From contig BCJC01000008.1 in the NCBI GenBank assembly GCA_001600175.1, forward strand, positions 64,781-128,780: a stretch of 64,000 nucleotides of DNA. Direction: 5' to 3'. The DNA comes from Erythrobasidium yunnanense (Eukaryota > Basidiomycota > Cystobasidiomycetes > Erythrobasidiales > Erythrobasidiaceae). The translations under genes were made by a program, and so were the position numbers. Positions 669 through 26,417 of the stretch are shown piece after piece (position 1 is the first letter of the stretch; each line of letters begins with the position of its first letter). The notes below the pieces were generated by a model. It was not told where the DNA came from. It did no database searches and was given only the letters and a program-made list of their open reading frames with translations.

Positions 669-1544
669 TTACCATCCAAGCTTTCCTACTTCCTGCATGT
701 TCTGTTCCGTTTCCCTCAATTCTCCTTTTCTGGCCGAGCTTCCGGCTCTGATAGGTGCAGAGGGCGATACGCTCCCTACTAGCTCACTCACACTTCTCGC
801 ATAGATGACTCTAGGCTGCGACATGCTGGGTCGCACTTGCTCATTCGCATGTGAAGGCATTCCTCGATTTGACGATGTTCGAGGAGGAGTAGCGAATCCA
901 TTCAATCGACTTCTGGTGATACGTGGTGGGAGGTGAGTCAGGTTGTCTTGAGAAGCTTGAGCAGGCCGTGAGTGCAAAAGAGGAAGCGTAGCTGGAGCAG
1001 CTGCTGAGGAGAGTAAAGGACGGCTGTCGATGTAGGTCGAAGGTGAGGTTGGAGTGAGTGGGGAATAGACCGCTGAGGGAGATAGAGGTGTGCGGATAGT
1101 AAGGGTCGGCGAAGTTGGCGATAGGAGCGGTTCTGCAACAGGTTTGCACAGAACGTGCGTTAGTCAACGAAGACTAAGTAGTGGCTTTTCTAACACTTAC
1201 GGAAACCATTGTTCTGAGAGTTGTTAGAAGCTGCAAAAACTTGCTTCATAGATGGATTTCCAGCATGAACGCCAGCAGCCGCGACTGGCTTCGCGGCAAA
1301 GTTGGAATAAACAGGCGAGGCGAAGGTAGGTGATGTTGAAGCAATACGAGCTTTCTCTTCATCTTCAATCTGTTTCGCTTTCTTCTTTCGTGAAATGAGG
1401 ATGCATTCCCAGATGTGCGTGCTGGAGTGGATCTCAGCTTTGCTTTGAAGAAGAGAGAGAATGTAGGACGTACGCTACTGCCGCAGCAACGACGATGCCT
1501 CCTACTGCCATACATACGACAAGAGCTATCTGTCCAGGCTGCAT
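669..1544 (-). CDS. Small single-pass membrane protein A, paralogue of the protein at 10209-10807
   Basis: Three exons read on the minus strand: 1544-1474, 1421-1201 and 1132-669, giving 251 residues. Introns have GTACGT..CAG and GTAAGT..CAG ends and join in frame. Residues 5-24 form one hydrophobic span directly at the N terminus (IALVVCMAVGGIVVAAAVA), with no cleavable signal. It is followed by THIWEC and a basic cluster RKKKAK, so the tail should be cytosolic by the positive-inside rule. The tail is Ser/Pro/Thr-rich and without a known domain. The first intron splits codon 24 in phase 2, exactly as in the gene at 10209. Cys30 next to the membrane could be S-acylated (inference). The gene is transcribed away from the ABC transporter at 2444. 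I do not recognise the family. Confidence 0.6.
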
Positions 1545-1780
1545 TGTTTTGGATTTGTGTAGGATTAGCGAGGGTGGAATAGAAGGAGAAAGTAAGAGAG
1601 ATAGGAAGAGAAGAGAAGGAGAATAGTGAGTTCAGCATAGTGAGCGAGCGAGCTTCAGCGACACAAAAGCTAGGTCGTCGTGAAAAGCTGGCGTTCTTGG
1701 TCGGCTGGGTTCCGAAGAGATACAAATTTGGCTTTGTCTTTTGTCGCAGGACAAGTGCGATTGAATAGCTGATCGTACGC

Positions 1781-1804
1781 TGTACATTGTTAGTGTACAT
1801 TGTT
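1781..1804. repeat. 11-bp tandem direct repeat in the divergent promoter region
   Basis: TGTACATTGTT occurs twice with 2 bases between the copies (13-base period). It lies about 240 bases upstream of small membrane protein A and about 640 upstream of the PDR transporter. Such spacing fits a site for a dimeric or tandem-binding regulator, but no factor is recognised. Confidence 0.5.
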
Positions 1805-2016
1805 CGGGCGTTTCTGGCTAGAGCTCTCGACAGGGAGCTTCGTGGTTGTCGTGAGAGCGACAGGACTGGGATGACCCTTGACACTTTTTTGACCAGACTA
1901 TGTAATGTGTAGTAAGATGCAGTAGCTAGTAATTCCAGCTCGAGTTGGTCGGAAGCCATGAAGGACAAGAAGAAGTGATTGTGCCTGAGCTGTCATTTGA
2001 TCGTAGCTGATCGAGC

Positions 2017-2023
2017 TGACTAA
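2017..2023 (+). promoter_or_regulatory. Possible Yap1-type response element
   Basis: TGACTAA fits the TKACTAA class of sites bound by fungal Yap/AP-1 bZIP factors, which are known to induce PDR-type efflux pumps under oxidative or drug stress. It lies about 420 bases upstream of the transporter start. A heptamer is expected by chance often, so this is only a candidate. The rest of the 1545-2443 interval holds a GTTT tetranucleotide run near 2047-2066 and no convincing gene. Confidence 0.25.
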
Positions 2024-2443
2024 TAATTAGAATCCTTCTCTCTTCCGTTGTTTGTTTGTTTGTTTGAGTTTGAGTTGAGTCCAGTCGAGATGGCAACTAC
2101 GAAGCAGGATCAGTGCATACTTGTTCCTCTCTTCCTTCCTCTGCTCTCCTCGATCCTCCTCGATTCTGAAGATTCGATAACCCCGTCTAATACCCGCCAA
2201 GCCAAGATATACAAACTCCGACGTCACTGCTTCTCACTCACTCATCACTCTTTCACTCACTGCTCACTCCGAGCGCTATCTCCGTCGCCGAGTGCTTGCT
2301 CAGTCACTCTCCTCACCTGGAATTGGCGCATCTCAGCCAGCTTGCTCGGAGTTCGCAAATTACGCAATTGGCTTCAACTCTGTTCAACTCGTTCTTCTTC
2401 TTCCTAGCAACAACAAATCCTTTAGAGACTTGAGTAGTCCAGC

Positions 2444-5400
2444 ATGGCTGCTGCGACGATCAACATGTACCCAGTGGGGGAGGACATGGCCAACAACAAC
2501 AATCATCTGGCACCCTCCTCATCACAGTCTTCCAACGACAGAGAGCCCGTCTCTTCCGACGCAGTAACACTCGCTCCAAGCACTCCGAATGACGACCTCG
2601 ATGGGGATGGTCGCAACAAGATTGGAAAATCCACAATCCCCGTACCTGTCCAAAGACCAGGCGCAGGCAAGGATGGACACTTGCAACGACAAGCTACGGA
2701 GTACATGACTGCAGAAGATATTGGAGAACTCCAACGCCAACTCTCAAGACACATCTCGCGCACCTCCACTGCTCACACAAACTACGGCAGCGAGATCAAC
2801 CCCGAGAGCGAGTCTTTCGAATTGGAACCCTTCTTAAGATCCATCTTCAGAAAGGGGAACGAATCTGGATTACAGCGACGAGAAACGAATGTCGTTTTTG
2901 AAAACTTATGCGTCGAGGGAATAGGAAGCGGAGTGACGTTCGGAGACACAGTAGGGAGTATCTTCCTGAAGCCTGTGGAGATGCTCAAGAACATCCGTCG
3001 GAAACAAGTAAAACACATCTTACAAGGTTTCTCGGGCACAGTCGAGCCAGGCGAGATGCTTCTAGTATTAGGAAGACCAGGAGCAGGATGTTCTTCTTTC
3101 TTGAAGACATTAGCGAATAATACGAATTCCTTCAGTGCTGTAACCGGCGAGAGATCGTATTCGGGAATAAGCGCGAAAGAGATGGCGAAACACTTTGCGG
3201 GAGACGTGGCGTACCTCCCAGAAGATGATATTCACCTACCGGTACTCACGGTGGACCAGACGCTAGAGTTTGCAGCTGCGTCTAGAGCTCCCGCCAAACA
3301 GTCGAGATTGGAGACGAGAGAGGAATACGTAAAGACGCTTAAAGCCGTCATGCTCGCCATCTTTGGTCTCAGACATACAGTAGACACGAAAGTCGGAGGA
3401 GAGTGAGTCGCCTTCCTTCCTCTATGCTACTCTCGAACGGCTGCTGACGAAGCACTCATTGTTTCCCAGCTACGTCCGCGGTATTTCTGGCGGACAACGC
3501 AAGCGCGTCTCCATTGCGGAGCTCATAATGACGCGTGCCAAAGTAGCGTGCCACGACAACTCGACTCGTGGTCTTGACGCTTCCACCTCCTTAGAATACG
3601 TGCAATCGCTACGCGTAGTCGCGGACATCGCAAGAGTGACGACTGTCGTTTCTATCTATCAAGCTGCAGAGAGCCTGTATAAATTGTTTGATAAAGTCTG
3701 TCTGATCTATGAAGGACGAATGATCTATTATGGACCGAGACAGCAGGCTAGCGAATACTTCCACTCGCTAGGATACGAGCCTCAGCCGAGACAGACTACG
3801 TACGTTACGTTTCCGTCCCATCCTTTCCCGCCTTACTTTAGCTGATGACCGGACTTGATTGTGCAGACCCGACTTCTTATGCAGTATCACGGATCCCAAC
3901 GCGCGAGTAGAGACCGAGAACTTCTCCGGCTATCGACCAAAGACGTCCTCCGAGTTCGCACAAGCCTTCCTCGACTCCCGGATCGGCAAAGAGAATCTCC
4001 ACCAAGTGTCTTTGGCAAAAGAGCATTTCACGCCTGAGGGCGTACAGAACTATCGTGAAAGCGCTAAAAAAGAAGTAGTAACGGGCGCTATTGGGGGAAG
4101 TAAGAAGAAACATAATGATGTGGGAGATATTACGAGGAAGGATTATGCTGCGGAGAATGGAGAGAAGGCAGATAAGAAAGCGGGAAAGAGTAGGAATCAG
4201 GCGAGCCCTTATGTCATTTCATATTGGCAACAAACGAAGTTGTGCATCAAGAGAAGAGTCCAGCTCGCCCTTGGTGATAAACCATCCCTTTTCATTCCTA
4301 TCATCGTCTCGATTATCAATGTGAGCCATATCCAACAGAAAGACATAGTAATGACTGAATTCACGATTTTCTCAGGCCATCATCATCGGGAGCACCTTCT
4401 TCAGAATCCCAGACAGTACAATCGGTTTCTTCTCAAGAGGAGGTGTTATTTTCTTCGCCATTCTATTCGTGCGTACTCTCCTGCCCTCTCTTTCTAATCT
4501 TCACTAATCCCTGACATCCATTTAGAACGCCTTCCAAGCAATGGCCGAGATTCCATCCGCATACACTCAACGTCCCGTCATTGTCCGCCAAAGAAGATAT
4601 GCCATGGTCCATCCGTCATGCGATGCTCTCGCTCAAGTATTGGTCGACTTCCCAGTCAAATTCGTCGTCATTGCCGTCTTCGATGTCATTCTTTGTGGGT
4701 TGCCTGCCTTTCTATAGGGACACGGAGGTCGTGTGCTGATCTGATGTGATGGAAAATAAAGACTTCTTTACGAACTTGTCGACGAGACTGGCTTCGCAAT
4801 TCTGGGTCTTCTTCCTGTTCACTTACGTCGTAACTTTGGCCAGTAAGCTCTATTCCTCACGTATCTCTTCTTTCACATACTGACTCTCTGTCTCGCTTAT
4901 CAGTGATAGCGTTCTTCCGCGCCCTGGCAGCCGTCACTCGCGCCGAATCTACCGCAACGCTCTTTGCAGGTCTTGGAATCCTCGTATTCGTGATTTACGC
5001 TGGATATGCGATTCCTAGACCCTCAATGAAAGTCTGGTTCAGATGGCTCTCTTACGCTCATCCGATTTCCTTCGGCTTCGAGGCTATGTTGACGTGAGTC
5101 TAGGCACCTTACGGTGCTATGCAAGGGATGCTGACAATCGAGATCATTCGTCATAGCAACGAGTTCCGAGCGTATACAGAGACGCCTTGTGCCAACCTGG
5201 TACCGACCAACGCACCGTCCGTCGCAAACCAGGTCTGCGCCATCGCTGGTTCCGTACCGGGTAGCGCTACCGTCAATGCCAATGACTACCTCGCCATCAA
5301 TAACGGCTACTACTACTCCAATACATGGCGCAACTTGGGCATCGTTCTCGCATTCTGGATCTTCTTCCTCTTCGTACAGCTCGTAGCTACTGAGTTTCAG

Positions 5401-8400
5401 GAAGACGTAGCGGAACGCCCAGCAGTGATTGTGTACAAGCGCGGTAAAGCACCTAAAGAAGTTCAGGAACTCATGAATGCATCAGGCGGAAACGATTCCG
5501 AGAAGAATGTAGCCAAAGATGCTGGACAACTTGTTGGAGAGAACAGAACGAACGCAAACGAACAGGAAGAAGCGGCAAACAAACTCGAGTCGGCATCGGA
5601 TGTCTTTTTGTTTAAGAACGTCTGCTATGATGTGCCCACCAAAGATGGGATGACGAGATTGCTCAATAACGTCAATGGATATGTAGCCCCTGGTAAACTT
5701 ACTGCGCTTATGGGAGAGAGTGGTAAGTTGCACTACATCCATTGCGGAGACAAGCCTTGACAAGTCTCTCAACAGGTGCTGGTAAGACTACGCTGCTAAA
5801 CGTTCTCGCTCAACGAGTCACTACTGGTGTCGTCACTGGTGATATGCTTGTTAACGGTCGACCTCTCCCTACCTCTTTCCAGAGACAGACTGGATACTGT
5901 CAGCAGCAAGATGGTGAGCATAAGCCTGCTTTTCCTTGACTCGCATCGACTGACCGGATACTCTCTCTCAGTTCACATGGCCACTCAGACAGTCAGAGAA
6001 GCTCTCGTAAGCTTACCCTCCCAGATTGCTCGCTGAAGCTATGCTGATGCAGCTATTGTATAGGAATTCTCCGCTCTACTTCGGCAACCCTCTACCACGC
6101 CTAAAGCCGAAAAGATCGCCTACGTCGATACGGTCATCAAGATGCTCGAGATGGAGTCTTTCCAACACGCTCTTGTCGGTGAAGTCGGAGAAGGTCTGAA
6201 TGTTGAACAACGCAAACGTCTTACTATTGGTGTCGAGCTGGCTGCGAAGCCTGCTCTACTGCTCTTCGCCGATGAACCTACTTCCGGTAAGCAGACTGTC
6301 ATAGCCGTTCAAATGCGCCTAATCATCCCGTCTCTTCTCTTCTATCAGGTCTCGATTCGCAAAGTGCCTGGTCTATTGTCCAGTTCCTTCGCAAGCTCGC
6401 AGATCACGGTCAAGCTATTCTGTGCACTATTCATCAGCCTTCGAGCGAGCTTTTCCAAGTCTTCGATCGACTACTTCTGCTAAAGAAGGGAGGCAAGACA
6501 GCCTACTTCGGCGACATCGGCAAGAACTCCGAGACGCTTATCAAGTACTTCGAAAGACAAAGTGGCAAGAAGTGTGGGGAACAAGATAACCCCGCTGAGT
6601 ATATCCTCGAGTGCGTTGGCGCTGGTGCTACTGCAAAAGTATCGGAAGACTGGGGCCAGCTCTGGCAAGAGTCGGACGAACGTAAAGAAAGCGATAGATA
6701 TGTTGCGAAACTCGAGTCGGACTACAAGGGCAAGAAGTCACAGGCAGACGAAGCGCCTGATGCTGGAAGATCCTACGCTGCACCTATCATGACTCAGTTG
6801 AGAGTCGTTACGCACCGTGCCTTCCAGAACTACTGGAGAGATCCGACTTACGTCTTTGGCAAACTGGCATTAAACATCTTCGGTAAGTTGAAGACAGCCA
6901 AATTGTTTCCGACGCATACATCTGACTGGTCTATACCTTAGCCGGTCTCTTCATCGGGTTCTCTTTCGTATGCATGCCTTTGAGGAGATGCAAAGGCTCT
7001 TGCTGACAGCAGATTGTTTCACAGTGGATGGCGCCTAACAATCAGCAGGGTCTCCAAGTATAGTGAGTCTAGCACTCCGCTGGCGCCCTGTGCTATGCTA
7101 ATTTTACACTATAGTCTCTTCTCCGTCTTCATGGCTATCGTATTGGCAGGTTCGCTCGCCCAACAGATTCAACCGAAATTCATCGCGCTCCGCGCGCTGT
7201 ACGAGGTCCGAGAGCGACCCAGCAGAATGTACAACTGGGGAGTACAAACGTTCGTATCGGTTCTAGTTGAAATTCCCTGGAATATCTTCGCTGGAAGTCT
7301 ATTCTTCTTCTGCTGGTACTGGACGGTCGGAAATCAAAGTGAAATCGACTCGTCTCCAAGAATCGCAAGGCACTACTAACGCGTCTATGTGCAGATGGCG
7401 AACGAGCTATCTATGGCTATCTCACATACGCAATTGCCTTTGAGCTGTACTGGCAGACCTTCGCACAAGCTGTAGCAGCCTTCTCGCCTAATGGCATGAT
7501 TGCTAGTAGTAAGTGTTCCTTTCTGCTGCTGTGGAAGATCACTCTGACGCTTCACTCGACAGTCATCTTCTCGTTCCTGTTCTCATTTGTCATTGTCTTC
7601 AACGGTGTTCTGCAGCCGCCCAGGTATGTCGGAGGTCAATAATCAAGGACCATAAGCTGAAGATTTTCATCAGCCTGCTACCCTACTTCTGGCGCTCATG
7701 GTAAGCGCTGACCTTGCAGGCATGCAGAAATATCGCTGATTATGATTTGTGCAGGATGTTCCCTCTTACGCCTTTCCGTTACCTTGTTGGCGGTCTACTG
7801 GCCAACTCTCTCGGAGGCGTCCAACTCACCTGCACCGATCAGCAAATCCAGTTCCTCAATCCGCCAGCTGGAGTTGGGACGTGCCAAGACTACCTGGGCG
7901 AATATGTTGCGTCTGCTACCGGCTTCCTCACTAATCCCAACGCTGTCGGACAACAATGCGGGTAAGCCTTGGCCTCAAAGCACATCGAGAAGCTCGAGCT
8001 GATATTCTGCCAGATACTGCCAATACGGCACCGGTGATGAATACCTGCAGACAGTACAAGCATCCTACAGCGACAGATGGAGAAACTTTGGCGTATGTCT
8101 CGTTACCATCTCGACGTAGATCTTTGCTGACTCTACTTTTTGCTACACTTCAGATTCTCTGGATCTACATTTTCTGTACGTGCAAAGGATATATAACTGG
8201 TGAAGATTATCCATACTGACGGATGTACGTGCAGTCAACTTGTTCGTCGTTTTCGCCATGACATGGGCTTTCCGCATCCACGATTGGTCGCGTAAATCCA
8301 AGGCATCAAACCCGAAAGCCGTCAAAGAGGATGAGCCTCAGCAAGTACAGCAAGGCGAGGGCGCTACTGAGAATCAGGCCAACGAGCCAGCTGGTGCAAC

Positions 8401-8488
8401 TGTTGGAGCGCTTCCCCTCATTGGCGCGACAACCGGTCGAAAGGGTGATACCGTAACCTCTGGCAACACCGACAGGCAGGAGACGTAA
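2444..8488 (+). CDS. PDR-type (ABCG) full-size drug-efflux transporter
   Basis: Multi-exon gene with many short introns; the first exon is 2444-3402 and joins at 3470 to give [15 protein letters not shown]. Order is NBD1-TMD1-NBD2-TMD2, as in yeast Pdr5 and Candida Cdr1. NBD1 has the atypical fungal Walker [10 protein letters not shown], signature [14 protein letters not shown] and Walker B-like [13 protein letters not shown], where the usual catalytic Glu is Asn, as expected for the degenerate PDR site. NBD2 has Walker A GESGAGKTT (split by an intron near 5725-5775), signature [14 protein letters not shown] and Walker [15 protein letters not shown]. Membrane segments lie around 4250-5400 and 6780-8280. 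The C-terminal tail after the last helix is Gln/Ala-rich. Expected role is ATP-driven export of hydrophobic drugs or lipid flipping at the plasma membrane. The specific orthologue cannot be named from sequence alone. Confidence 0.93.
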
Positions 8489-10208
8489 AGAGCGTGGCTA
8501 AGGACGTTTACTTTTCTTTCCTTTTCTTCTTCTTTCTTCATTCCCGTTCATATTGATCTAATCATCCGTTCTTCTCGGTTGATTAGATCTATTCGCATAT
8601 AGATTGCACATAGGCAGCTTGTGTACATGATGGTAATGATCACAGATGGCATTTGAAGAATCGTTCATCATAGCTCTTATTCGCAACTTGCCTAAGAATT
8701 GGCTCTCGTCTTTCGGTCGAATACTTTTGCCAGCCGAACCTACGAGAACGCGAGTACGGATATGCGCAAGCGTGGTAGAACTGTACCCTCAGCGCTAAGA
8801 GACTGGCTAGCTGTAGTCCAGAAGATTCAGCTAACGATAGTCGAAAATCCAGAGGGACTTCTACACGATATGACGCGATTTAGGGTAATCCTCTACCGCA
8901 GGCTGTCACCTTCTCTGATGGCATCTGCCAGATCAGGTTATCGACGGGCTGCCCTATTGTTCCCTATCTGATCCTCGTCCTGGCCTCTTTTGTTGAAGAC
9001 GAATTGGGCAGGACACACGGCCGAAAGCACACGTAACAAGACGGTCTGTATCTGGAGCTCCATGTCCATGGCTGTCTTGGATTACGGGCGAAGACTGCCG
9101 TGGAAGAACATGCTGCTGGACTTCTGTCCCAAGTGCTTAAGTCAAGCTTTCTCGACCGAGGGCAGCCGCATTCTGCTGGCAGAAAAGCGACCTGAGGGTG
9201 GTGCTGTGAATTGTGTTGACAGAGCTGAGTCCCTGCTAAGCAACCCTTTCGCGAATCTATCTTCTCTTCAAGCAATCTGCACGAATCTGACCGAAGAAGT
9301 GCCTCACTGCTGAAAGGCTTCACCCGCTTTCCGTTCGGAGTTATTCTTCTTGCGGGTCCAACTCTAATGACAGCTTCAACCGGAAAGCGAGTGAGGTGTC
9401 AATGAGGCTGTGACTGGGGTACCAGCTCTACCGCAAGCGGGCTGGGTGATTGGCATCAAAAGCTAACATTTGTTCATATGACATAGTCGTCAATTGTAAT
9501 TCGGCTTGGTCTGGCGCGCGTCACACCAGTGGGTCTTTAGCTTCCTCTCCTCATTCGCAAGAAGTCGTATCATGGCACAACTTTGCGACCCTTCTACTGC
9601 TCATTACTGGTGACTCCTCCCTACAAGATTTCTCCCGAGAGAATCACACGGAACTGCCTAGAATACACTAATGGACCCGTCACCACCTTAATACCGTCCG
9701 ACGGTAGCAACGTTTCCCACATCAGCGCTTTTCGTTCAGATAGCAGCACGGCGCTTCTTCTTCTCGCCAACGTCGAACGACATACGGTGCTTGTAACAGC
9801 TCTGTATTTGAGCGACTTCGTACAGCCAGATCAGCGACGGGATCTGCAAGCCGGCCCCTCTCATCCGGTACCTAGAAAGATCAACGGGAACGGCACCGAT
9901 AGCTCCACAAACTTATTACACTTCCGCAACGATCAAAGCAAGCCGTTCGTTGAGAAAGCTAGCGAGACCGAACGCTAGTCTGACGCGACAAGCCTATCTT
10001 AGCTTCTCATTCCTTCTTCACAACGGACAAGCCCGTATATCCTCAGCTCTGTGGGCAGTTGGTAGAACAGGGCAGCGAGAAGGGGTCACTCACACCTGGC
10101 GAAACTTTGGCATTCTTGCTTCCTCACCTCTTCCGTCCTTGGTCCTTCATCCATCTTTGGCGTCCTGAACTTTCAGCTCTCATAAATCTTCCCGTCGACA
10201 CTTGAAAG
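8489..10208. other. 1.7-kb stretch with no assignable gene
   Basis: After the transporter stop there is a T-rich likely 3' UTR, then open stretches in several frames (plus strand 8699-8971, 8990-9313 and 9541-9978; minus strand 8964-9323). None begins with a convincing start, shares a domain I recognise, or joins to another by clear splice sites. The frame 9541-9978 has the most protein-like composition, with SDSSTALLLLANVERHTVLV and a stop at 9976-9978. It may be an unrecognised multi-exon gene, a decayed gene or plain intergenic DNA. Confidence 0.35.
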
Positions 10209-10807
10209 ATGGAATGGTACATGATCCTTCTCATTGCTCTTCTGAGTTTCGGAGGCTTGATTTGTGCTGTAGTCATCTGGTACGTACAGGCGCTGGGATA
10301 TCGAAGATATAGACCTCTTCTCTGACATCTCCTTCTCTCTCGCTCCTCAGCTTGCATGCCTTTGAGTGTTCCTACGTACTCAAAGCCCGACGGAACGGCA
10401 CGCAATTCGCAGACGACTTCACCTTCAATCTCAGCGATAGCACGAGCGGGGGTGCTGTTTCGCAGATCGACCTACCTCCCAGCAATTCCGTCGTCGTGCC
10501 CAATGTCCAGTCATTCCGGCACCAACGCGAATACTCAGTACCTACGAGTCCTTCCACTTTCCTCTCGTACTCAGACGGAAGCACGATGTCTCCTTCTACG
10601 ACGTCCTCTTTTCCGTCGCCTACCTTCAGCTCGTATCCGGCCACTCCTCAAGCAGCGCATATGGATCCGTCTCTTTCGAGGAATAGTGGAAGACACGCTT
10701 TCGTAAGCTTTGACAGGCTTAGAGGCAGGAGTAATGATTCGGACGTCCACAAAAAGGATGAAGAGGACTTGGAAGCCAGGACGCATCCTTGCACGACACC
10801 CTTGTGA
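10209..10807 (+). CDS. Small single-pass membrane protein B, paralogue of the protein at 669-1544
   Basis: Two exons, 10209-10279 and 10351-10807, joined by a GTACGT..CAG intron, give 175 residues. The N terminus is a single hydrophobic span (MILLIALLSFGGLICAVVIC) immediately followed by LHAFEC and a basic stretch KARR. GG at residues 15-16, the phase-2 intron in codon 24, His26, an aromatic at 28, and Glu29-Cys30 coincide position by position with protein A. The tail is Ser/Thr/Pro-rich (PTSPSTF, MSPSTTSSFPSPTFSSYP), ending in a charged segment. Likely a type III signal-anchor protein with a cytosolic tail and a juxtamembrane Cys that could be acylated. It lies downstream of, and co-directional with, the PDR transporter. 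Unknown family. Confidence 0.6.
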
Positions 10808-24501: not shown

Positions 24502-26226
24502 CTAGTTGTCTTGAGCTCCTGGATTGGCAACACTTAGGCGATACGGAGCTTGTTGCTGATACGGGCTATATGGTTGGTGACCTGCCTGCATCGGGCTCAA
24601 AGGTCGACCCTGTGCAGACTGCAGGCTCTCCATATCGTCCATATGTGTAGATAGAGGTCGCTGCACAGGAGAGCCCGTGTTGACAGCGAGACCCTGATTC
24701 GGACCAGGACTGTGTGATCGCATGTGAGGCGAGCCAGAAGCGCTGGTTGGACCACCTGAATAAGGACTGCCTATCCCGCCCTGTATAGGAGAAGGACCTC
24801 TAGGCTGAGCAACGGGAGGGTACATCGAGGGCTGTTGCTGTTGGTATAGGGCTGGATCATAGTATGGTCCACTGTTGTGAGGCGGAGCGGGAGATAAGGT
24901 ACGAGGTGGTGGATAGGGGGCTCCAGAGGCGCCGAGATATGGATCATCTGGGACATAAGCAGGTCAGCATTGTATATTGATGATTGGCTTCAGACTAGCG
25001 GCACTTACAGTATCCCTGCTGATGGCTTACATAGTAAGGACCGCCAGTCGCAACGCCGTTCGCTGAGCCGCCACCGCCTGCTGTTGAGCTTCCTGCACTT
25101 GATGCACTTCGCGATATGCCCATTGCCGGCGCAGCTAGCCCCAAGCCTGCTGCAGCGAAATGCTTTTCATTAAGGTTGGACTGGTAATCTGACGAGTCCA
25201 TGACGCTGGCACCGTCATCGAGATCTACTCCAATGCCTGCAGCATGGTCGCGGCGATGTGTACTGAGCGGGTTTAAGACGGTGGTTTCGTCCTCGTTCCG
25301 CTTCAGAATTTCTGGCCAGCGAATTGCACGACCACCATCTTCGTCAAGCTCGCTGAATCGCGTCTGTGTGCATCTGTAACCTATGAAGAGGATACCCGAA
25401 AGAGCGATGATCCCGCCTACAAAGAAACAAACAGGCACAAAGCGCGTCAGGGATTAGATTTTCATAGATTCAAAGTCCGATGGCCAGACTTACCAATCAC
25501 AGCAAGAGGTATGATCCAAGCCTTGGAATTGGATCCGCCAGAGGAGCCTGTACCTGACGTTTGAGATGCAGCTGGCGCCGAAGAAATCGATTGGGAAGTG
25601 ACAACGGAGCCATCGGATTGCGTGGTCGTAATGATGATGGTAGATACGCCGCCCGCTGAAGATGGAAGTGAAGTGATTGGAGTAGAAGAGACTGCACTGG
25701 AGTCGGATGGGACAGAGGTAACAATGGACGTTGCTGAAGTCGCGCTCGTGTCTGGCTGTGAGGATATGGGAGGATTCGAGGATGGGATAGACACAGCAGT
25801 AGATGGATCCTGGCTTGGAATATTGCCTGGACTGCTCGGATTGCTAGTGTTTGGAGGGGTGTTTGGCGCGCTGGTCGGACTCTGCTGAGTCGTAGCTGTT
25901 GTCGGTCTAGATTCGGACGTTGATGGTCCAGCTGTACTCTGCTGAGGTTCACTACTCCTTGATGGCTCGGCGTCTGTCTCATTCTGGCGTTTCCCGAGTC
26001 TGGCACCCAAAATCCTCGCGGCCAGAGTATCGCCCATAGATGGTTCTCGCTGCTGGACGTATCTTCTGACCATGTTTTCGCTGTTCTGCGCGTAGTTGCC
26101 AGCTGCAATTCCAGATCCAGTCGCTGCTGCTGCCGTTCCCGTTGTCCCTGCCAGCGCAAGGGTGGCCAGAGCCAGCGCCAGCGTCTTCATCGTCGTCGCC
26201 GTCCACCTCGCACGGCGCTGTTGCAT
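24502..26226 (-). CDS. Mucin-like type I single-pass membrane protein
   Basis: Three exons on the minus strand, 26226-25494, 25416-25009 and 24947-24502, give 528 residues from the first ATG. A second in-frame ATG at 26190 begins MKTLALALATLALAG, a good signal peptide, and may be the true start. The ectodomain (about residues 80-245) is rich in Ser, Thr and Pro and lacks a folded domain, suggesting heavy O-mannosylation. One membrane span (AWIIPLAVIGGIIALSGILF) is split by the first intron. The cytosolic tail is basic, then Gly/Ser/Pro/Tyr/Gln-rich with PYSGGP and QQQAPY stretches. The architecture resembles fungal wall-stress sensors such as Mid2/Wsc, but no WSC cysteine domain is present. 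Confidence 0.7.
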
Positions 26227-26417
26227 CGCAGGTGCAATTCTGGATGGTGCAGAAGCAAGCGACGACAATTCGACAAACCAATTTTACGCGGTAAATAGCT
26301 GATCACGTGATATTTGGCTAACACCCACTTTAGCAGATCTAAGTAGGGTTGTAATGCTTACAAGCAACATTGTACGTATGGATTGACTAGAACACCGACA
26401 ATGACGCGTAACAGACC

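Follow-up and report, generated by a model that had tools for sequence, protein, structure and literature searches.

In this stretch of DNA, two small predicted membrane proteins, g1 and g2, are encoded on either side of an ABC transporter gene and have in common an N-terminal module whose paralogy is well supported by sequence comparison. The two genes probably derive from an old local gene duplication. The preliminary description, which pointed to two paralogous small membrane proteins flanking a drug transporter, made a true observation, and its most likely meaning is an ordinary one, namely two membrane anchors that arose from each other locally and long ago.

Gene models and neighbourhood

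The predicted genes are given below by their positions in the window, which is the whole 64-kb stretch of DNA that was analysed.

1544-669, minus strand: g1 gene, three exons, 251 amino acids
1474-1544, minus strand: g1 exon 1, short N-terminus and predicted membrane span, from residue 1 to base 2 of codon 24
1422-1473, minus strand: g1 intron 1, 52 nt, GTACGT donor, phase 2 (sequence and splice search)
1201-1421, minus strand: g1 exon 2, T25-H26-I27-W28-E29-C30, basic cluster, start of the tail
1133-1200, minus strand: g1 intron 2, 68 nt, GTAAGT donor, phase 1, without counterpart in the g2 model
669-1132, minus strand: g1 exon 3, Ser/Thr/Pro/Ala-rich tail and stop
2444-8488, plus strand: PDR/CDR-type ABCG transporter (Pfam on exons; approximate gene model)
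10209-10807, plus strand: g2 gene, two exons, 175 amino acids
10209-10279, plus strand: g2 exon 1, short N-terminus and predicted membrane span
10280-10350, plus strand: g2 intron, 71 nt, GTACGT donor, phase 2, in the same codon as g1 intron 1
10351-10807, plus strand: g2 exon 2, L25-H26-A27-F28-E29-C30, basic cluster, Ser/Thr/Pro-rich tail, stop

The coordinates first proposed for the two proteins (669-1544 and 10209-10807) were right, as was the placement of one gene on each side of the transporter; the gene at 669-1544 is on the minus strand. In both g1 and g2, exon 1 ends after nucleotide 71, in codon 24, with a GTACGT donor in phase 2. The introns of both models were recovered by a dynamic-programming splice search that combined codon usage with donor, acceptor and branch-point scores. 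The alignment of the two proteins was not an input to this search; both ends of each gene were supplied, the donor scores (GTACGT among the good ones) were set after the alignment had been seen, and the resulting models are predictions. Sequence and splice search agree with the phase-2 GTACGT intron in codon 24 that had been claimed for both genes. When left unspliced at intron 1, g1 meets a stop after 36 codons (ORF 1434-1631). An alternative splicing of g1, with a 66-nt exon 1 and a 46-nt intron, keeps the H-x-[F/W]-E-C motif in frame and shifts its His to position 28, and g2 has an alternative inner start at 10221.

The coding log-odds per codon were 0.076 for g1, 0.014 for g2 and 0.092 for the transporter, part of which had trained the codon table. 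The annotated frame scored above the other five frames in both small genes, the score of g2 being weak. For comparison, 528-nt stretches between 8500 and 10200 gave a mean of -0.18 (SD 0.08, maximum -0.005). The 1.7-kb spacer between the transporter and g2 (8489-10208) had negative coding log-odds in the windows tested. The spacer holds several CCG/CGG dyads (9324, 9431, 9635, 9694 and 9851); of the regions upstream of g1/transporter and of g2, it is mostly the latter that contains such dyads.

The middle gene is an ordinary PDR/CDR-type ABCG transporter. Pfam detected ABC_trans_N, ABC_tran, ABC2_membrane and PDR_CDR domains on its exons: one of these four domains is carried by five of the ten transporter stretches, one further stretch matched ABC2_membrane_7 and four had no match. 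The CDR domain, together with the intron density, led the window to be read as fungal. The gene lies head to head with g1, 899 bp apart (1545-2443), while g2 is located 1.7 kb downstream and has its own upstream region. Beyond g2, on the other strand, comes a DnaJ-type gene (Pfam).

Further along, Pfam searches on single frames between 11467 and 49298 indicated DnaJ-type, SNF2-related, Vps39-like, Oxa1/YidC-like and Sec2-like products, and five of the ten frames examined there had no Pfam match. On the minus strand at 25370-26283, a Ser/Thr/Pro-rich frame (25462-26283) precedes a hydrophobic stretch containing a GG pair (25432-25370). These two parts are in different frames and would need an intron to link them; together they would resemble a single-span protein whose outer part is rich in Ser and Thr. 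The segment 25465-26283 had no Pfam match. Scans of the whole window for tRNA genes and Rfam families gave no match in either case. The sequence upstream of g2 was also considered as a possible remnant of a second transporter, from a 20-nt match at 10092-10111 (17/20) and, among the tblastn matches listed, a 7-residue match with an E-value of 0.006 obtained with many small queries; both were attributed to chance because of the many comparisons made.

The shared N-terminal module

Residues 1-38 of g1 and g2 could be aligned without gaps with a BLOSUM62 score of 58 (47 over 45 residues), and the similarity fades beyond about residue 38. In residues 2-34, the identical positions are I6, L8, G15, G16, A20, H26, E29 and C30, and position 28 is aromatic in both proteins (W in g1, F in g2). 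The alignment therefore upheld the common N-terminal span with Gly-Gly at 15-16, followed by His26, an aromatic residue at 28 and Glu29-Cys30. A basic cluster after Cys30, also part of the initial claim, is present in both proteins, positions 35, 37 and 38 being basic when no gap is allowed; this register is tentative, because MAFFT introduces a one-residue gap after C30. Pairwise blastp of g1 against g2 gave an E-value of 7e-5, without composition correction. The identical residues were not significantly clustered on one helical face (P 0.17; P 0.035 when weighted by similarity), and a dedicated helix-helix interface is accordingly not established.

As the pair had been picked after the window was read, a window-wide control is the fair one. 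N-terminal hydrophobic-span starts were collected on both strands, with or without one intron, which gave 15 candidate starts in 25 variants, including g1, g2 and an inner Met of g1. Only one of the 103 candidate pairs, g1/g2 itself, reached 58 (mean -18, SD 15); the next best score was 2 against g1 (after g2) and 7 against g2 (after g1). This control thus still singles out g1 and g2. When 60 windows were simulated with the second-order composition of the original, their 556 candidates scored at most 18 against g1 and 21 against g2, and none attained 58. When residues 2-24 and 25-45 were shuffled separately, none of 200,000 shuffles reached 47 (fixed register, 45 residues), nor did any of 40,000 reach the observed score when the register could shift by as many as 4 positions. 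Taken singly, the two segments gave shuffle P values of 0.00016 and 0.001.

The motif H-x-[FWY]-E-C was found twice in the six frames of the 64 kb, in g1 and g2 only, where 0.2 occurrences are expected (40 simulations). The combination of span, intron and motif was likewise restricted to g1 and g2 in the window, and was absent from 12 simulations. Among the 20 predicted introns of the transporter, two of which look wrong, two have a GTACGT donor and six are in phase 2. Both features are fairly common here, and the shared intron is therefore supporting evidence that would be insufficient alone.

Taken together, the N-terminal score stands out in the window, the shuffles and the simulations, and the paralogy proposed for the two small membrane proteins holds for their N-terminal modules. 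No direct or inverted repeat joining g1 and g2 was present among the repeats listed (ungapped, at least 20 bases, about 65% identity or more), so the duplication was judged to be probably old.

The tails after residue 45 are 206 residues long in g1 and 130 in g2. They had been described as different; no alignment beyond chance was obtained, as the local alignment score of 52 was reached by 5.8% of 3,000 shuffles, and by the same measure no docking site stands out as conserved. Ser, Thr and Pro are abundant in both tails, SP/TP sites number 11 in g1 and 5 in g2, and [LP]PxY is absent from residue 46 to the end of either protein.

With tails that do not align beyond chance and a similarity that ends near residue 38, it might be that only the N-terminal anchor is common, a signal-anchor module having been moved by exon shuffling onto unrelated tails; the phase-2 intron bounding the span would fit such an event. 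However, H26-C30 and the basic cluster are encoded past that intron, in exon 2, so homology extends across the exon boundary. Moreover, the disordered tails of true paralogues quickly lose alignable similarity. Exon shuffling is considered unlikely, and the reading of g1 and g2 as probably old paralogues is preferred.

Searches for relatives and comparison with known proteins

Neither the whole proteins nor their 45-residue N-termini gave a Pfam match above the curated cut-off; seven weak rows were returned, all below it. One of them, DUF5326 (PF17260), resembles the hydrophobic stretch of g2 at residues 2-27 (E 0.0015 and 19.1 bits with the 45-residue fragment; E 0.022 with the whole protein). 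It was rejected, as it falls under the curated cut-off of 27 bits, ends before E29-C30 and leaves g1 unmatched. The other six were rejected as below cut-off. In the PDB, no chain matched g1 or g2 significantly, and integrin beta-3 was discarded at an E-value of 1.3. The titles and abstract openings of the literature searched held nothing relevant on the motif or on transporter partners of this kind. The initial statement that no described family is known to carry the motif agrees with these negatives, within the scope of Pfam, the PDB and the literature searched.

No relative of g1 or g2 was found outside the window in the IMG/VR and GTDB contigs, which do not cover fungal genomes as such. In IMG/VR viral contigs, a search with the aligned N-termini of the two proteins produced 24 pattern matches and a single confirmed locus, L001. 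This match covers 14 residues of a 725-residue ORF that is uninterrupted and stands among consecutive phage-like genes, and it was for that reason taken as chance. The ORF of this phage-like contig contains VATHIWEC (L001:5001-5042); the 8-residue pattern alone recurs in large collections. With both N-termini, GTDB genome contigs yielded 32 pattern matches and no relative. The transporter exon 5161-5721, used as a query for stray fungal contigs, gave 7 viral and 24 genome pattern matches, again without a relative.

The transmembrane adaptors LAT, NTAL and PAG have a short outside part, one span, a boundary Cys and a long cytosolic tail that serves as a platform. Such LAT-type adaptors function through tyrosine sites and, as a rule, a CxxC pair, and their juxtamembrane cysteine is S-acylated. 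The likeness of g1 and g2 to these vertebrate proteins lies in the overall anatomy and in a Cys near the predicted cytosolic boundary, with no sequence relation shown; by contrast, g1 and g2 have a single boundary Cys (Cys30) and SP/TP-rich tails. Yeast Rsp5 adaptors of the Rcr1/Rcr2 type (Pfam RCR) combine a single span and a cytosolic tail with a PPxY-type site. The first two features resemble the anatomy predicted for g1 and g2, whereas neither tail has the PPxY-type site and no Pfam match exceeded the cut-off. AcrZ, which has no long tail, is comparable as a single-span protein beside a multidrug pump, but it is bacterial and its pump, AcrB, is of the unrelated RND type.

Proposed role of the anchors and the transporter question

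The most likely reading, itself about an even call, is that the two paralogues are single-pass signal anchors that present phosphorylated docking tails at the cytosolic face. About 5 residues would lie outside, followed by one helix (about residues 6-25) carrying the shared G15-G16-xxx-A20 as a putative packing motif. H26-x-[F/W]-E-C would be juxtamembrane at the predicted cytosolic side, ahead of a basic stop. Positive charges follow the span in both proteins (R35, K36, K37 and K38 in one, K35, R37 and R38 in the other), which by the positive-inside rule suggests an N-out/C-in topology with a cytosolic tail. The N-terminal module may act as a reverse signal anchor, leaving the tail exposed on the cytosolic side of either the plasma membrane or an endomembrane. 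Cys30 would be S-acylated or contact a partner helix; an S-acylated anchor is plausible from the one Cys at the predicted cytosolic boundary. The fast-evolving and presumably disordered tail could serve as a docking platform phosphorylated at proline-directed sites.

The position of the genes on both sides of the transporter, together with the 899-bp head-to-head region that g1 shares with it, raises the possibility that g1 and g2 are partners of the PDR transporter, the helix packing on the transporter and the tail controlling its trafficking or activity. AcrZ of E. coli, a single-span small protein that works with the multidrug pump AcrB, offers a bacterial precedent (PMC7267776). Shared promoter elements for g1/transporter and g2 were sought and rejected: the upstream regions 1545-2443 and 9209-10208 have no 11-mer in common, their four common 10-mers are mostly CT runs, and CCGCGG occurs in neither. 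Furthermore, g2 is separated from the transporter end by 1.7 kb and has an upstream region to itself, the neighbourhood is mixed, since a DnaJ-type gene follows g2, and local duplication alone could yield the adjacency. These observations neither support nor refute a partnership with the transporter, which is considered improbable.

Other explanations were given still less weight. A metal or redox site that H26, E29 and C30 would form on the surface of the membrane, possibly within a dimer packed through G-xxx-A, would suit residues shared at i, i+3 and i+4 of a possibly continuing helix and the common G16-xxx-A20. It is nevertheless very improbable, given the non-significant helical-face test for identities, the lack of a relative with a known site, and a Cys30 that may only be acylated. 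That two unrelated signal anchors were lined up by convergence or chance is scarcely credible: the regions are short, hydrophobic and just two in number, the pair was selected after the window was seen, and MAFFT departs from the ungapped register after C30, but against this stand the score of 58 (next best 7 in the window and 21 in the simulated ones), the identical intron position and phase, and a motif seen well above expectation, both times in this context.

A pair of paralogous membrane anchors thus remains the preferred reading. A broader proposal, to which little probability is attached, is that g1 and g2 represent the first members of a so far undescribed fungal family, in which an anchor with H-x-[F/W]-E-C would pair mutually or with the transporter, and phosphorylated tails would set the membrane domain, turnover or activity of the transporter. 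If a family with this motif were widespread and kept beside PDR genes, this would point to accessory subunits of fungal multidrug transporters, for which, to our knowledge, none have been described. Otherwise, the locus would represent a small membrane anchor that was duplicated locally, and its interest would be ordinary.
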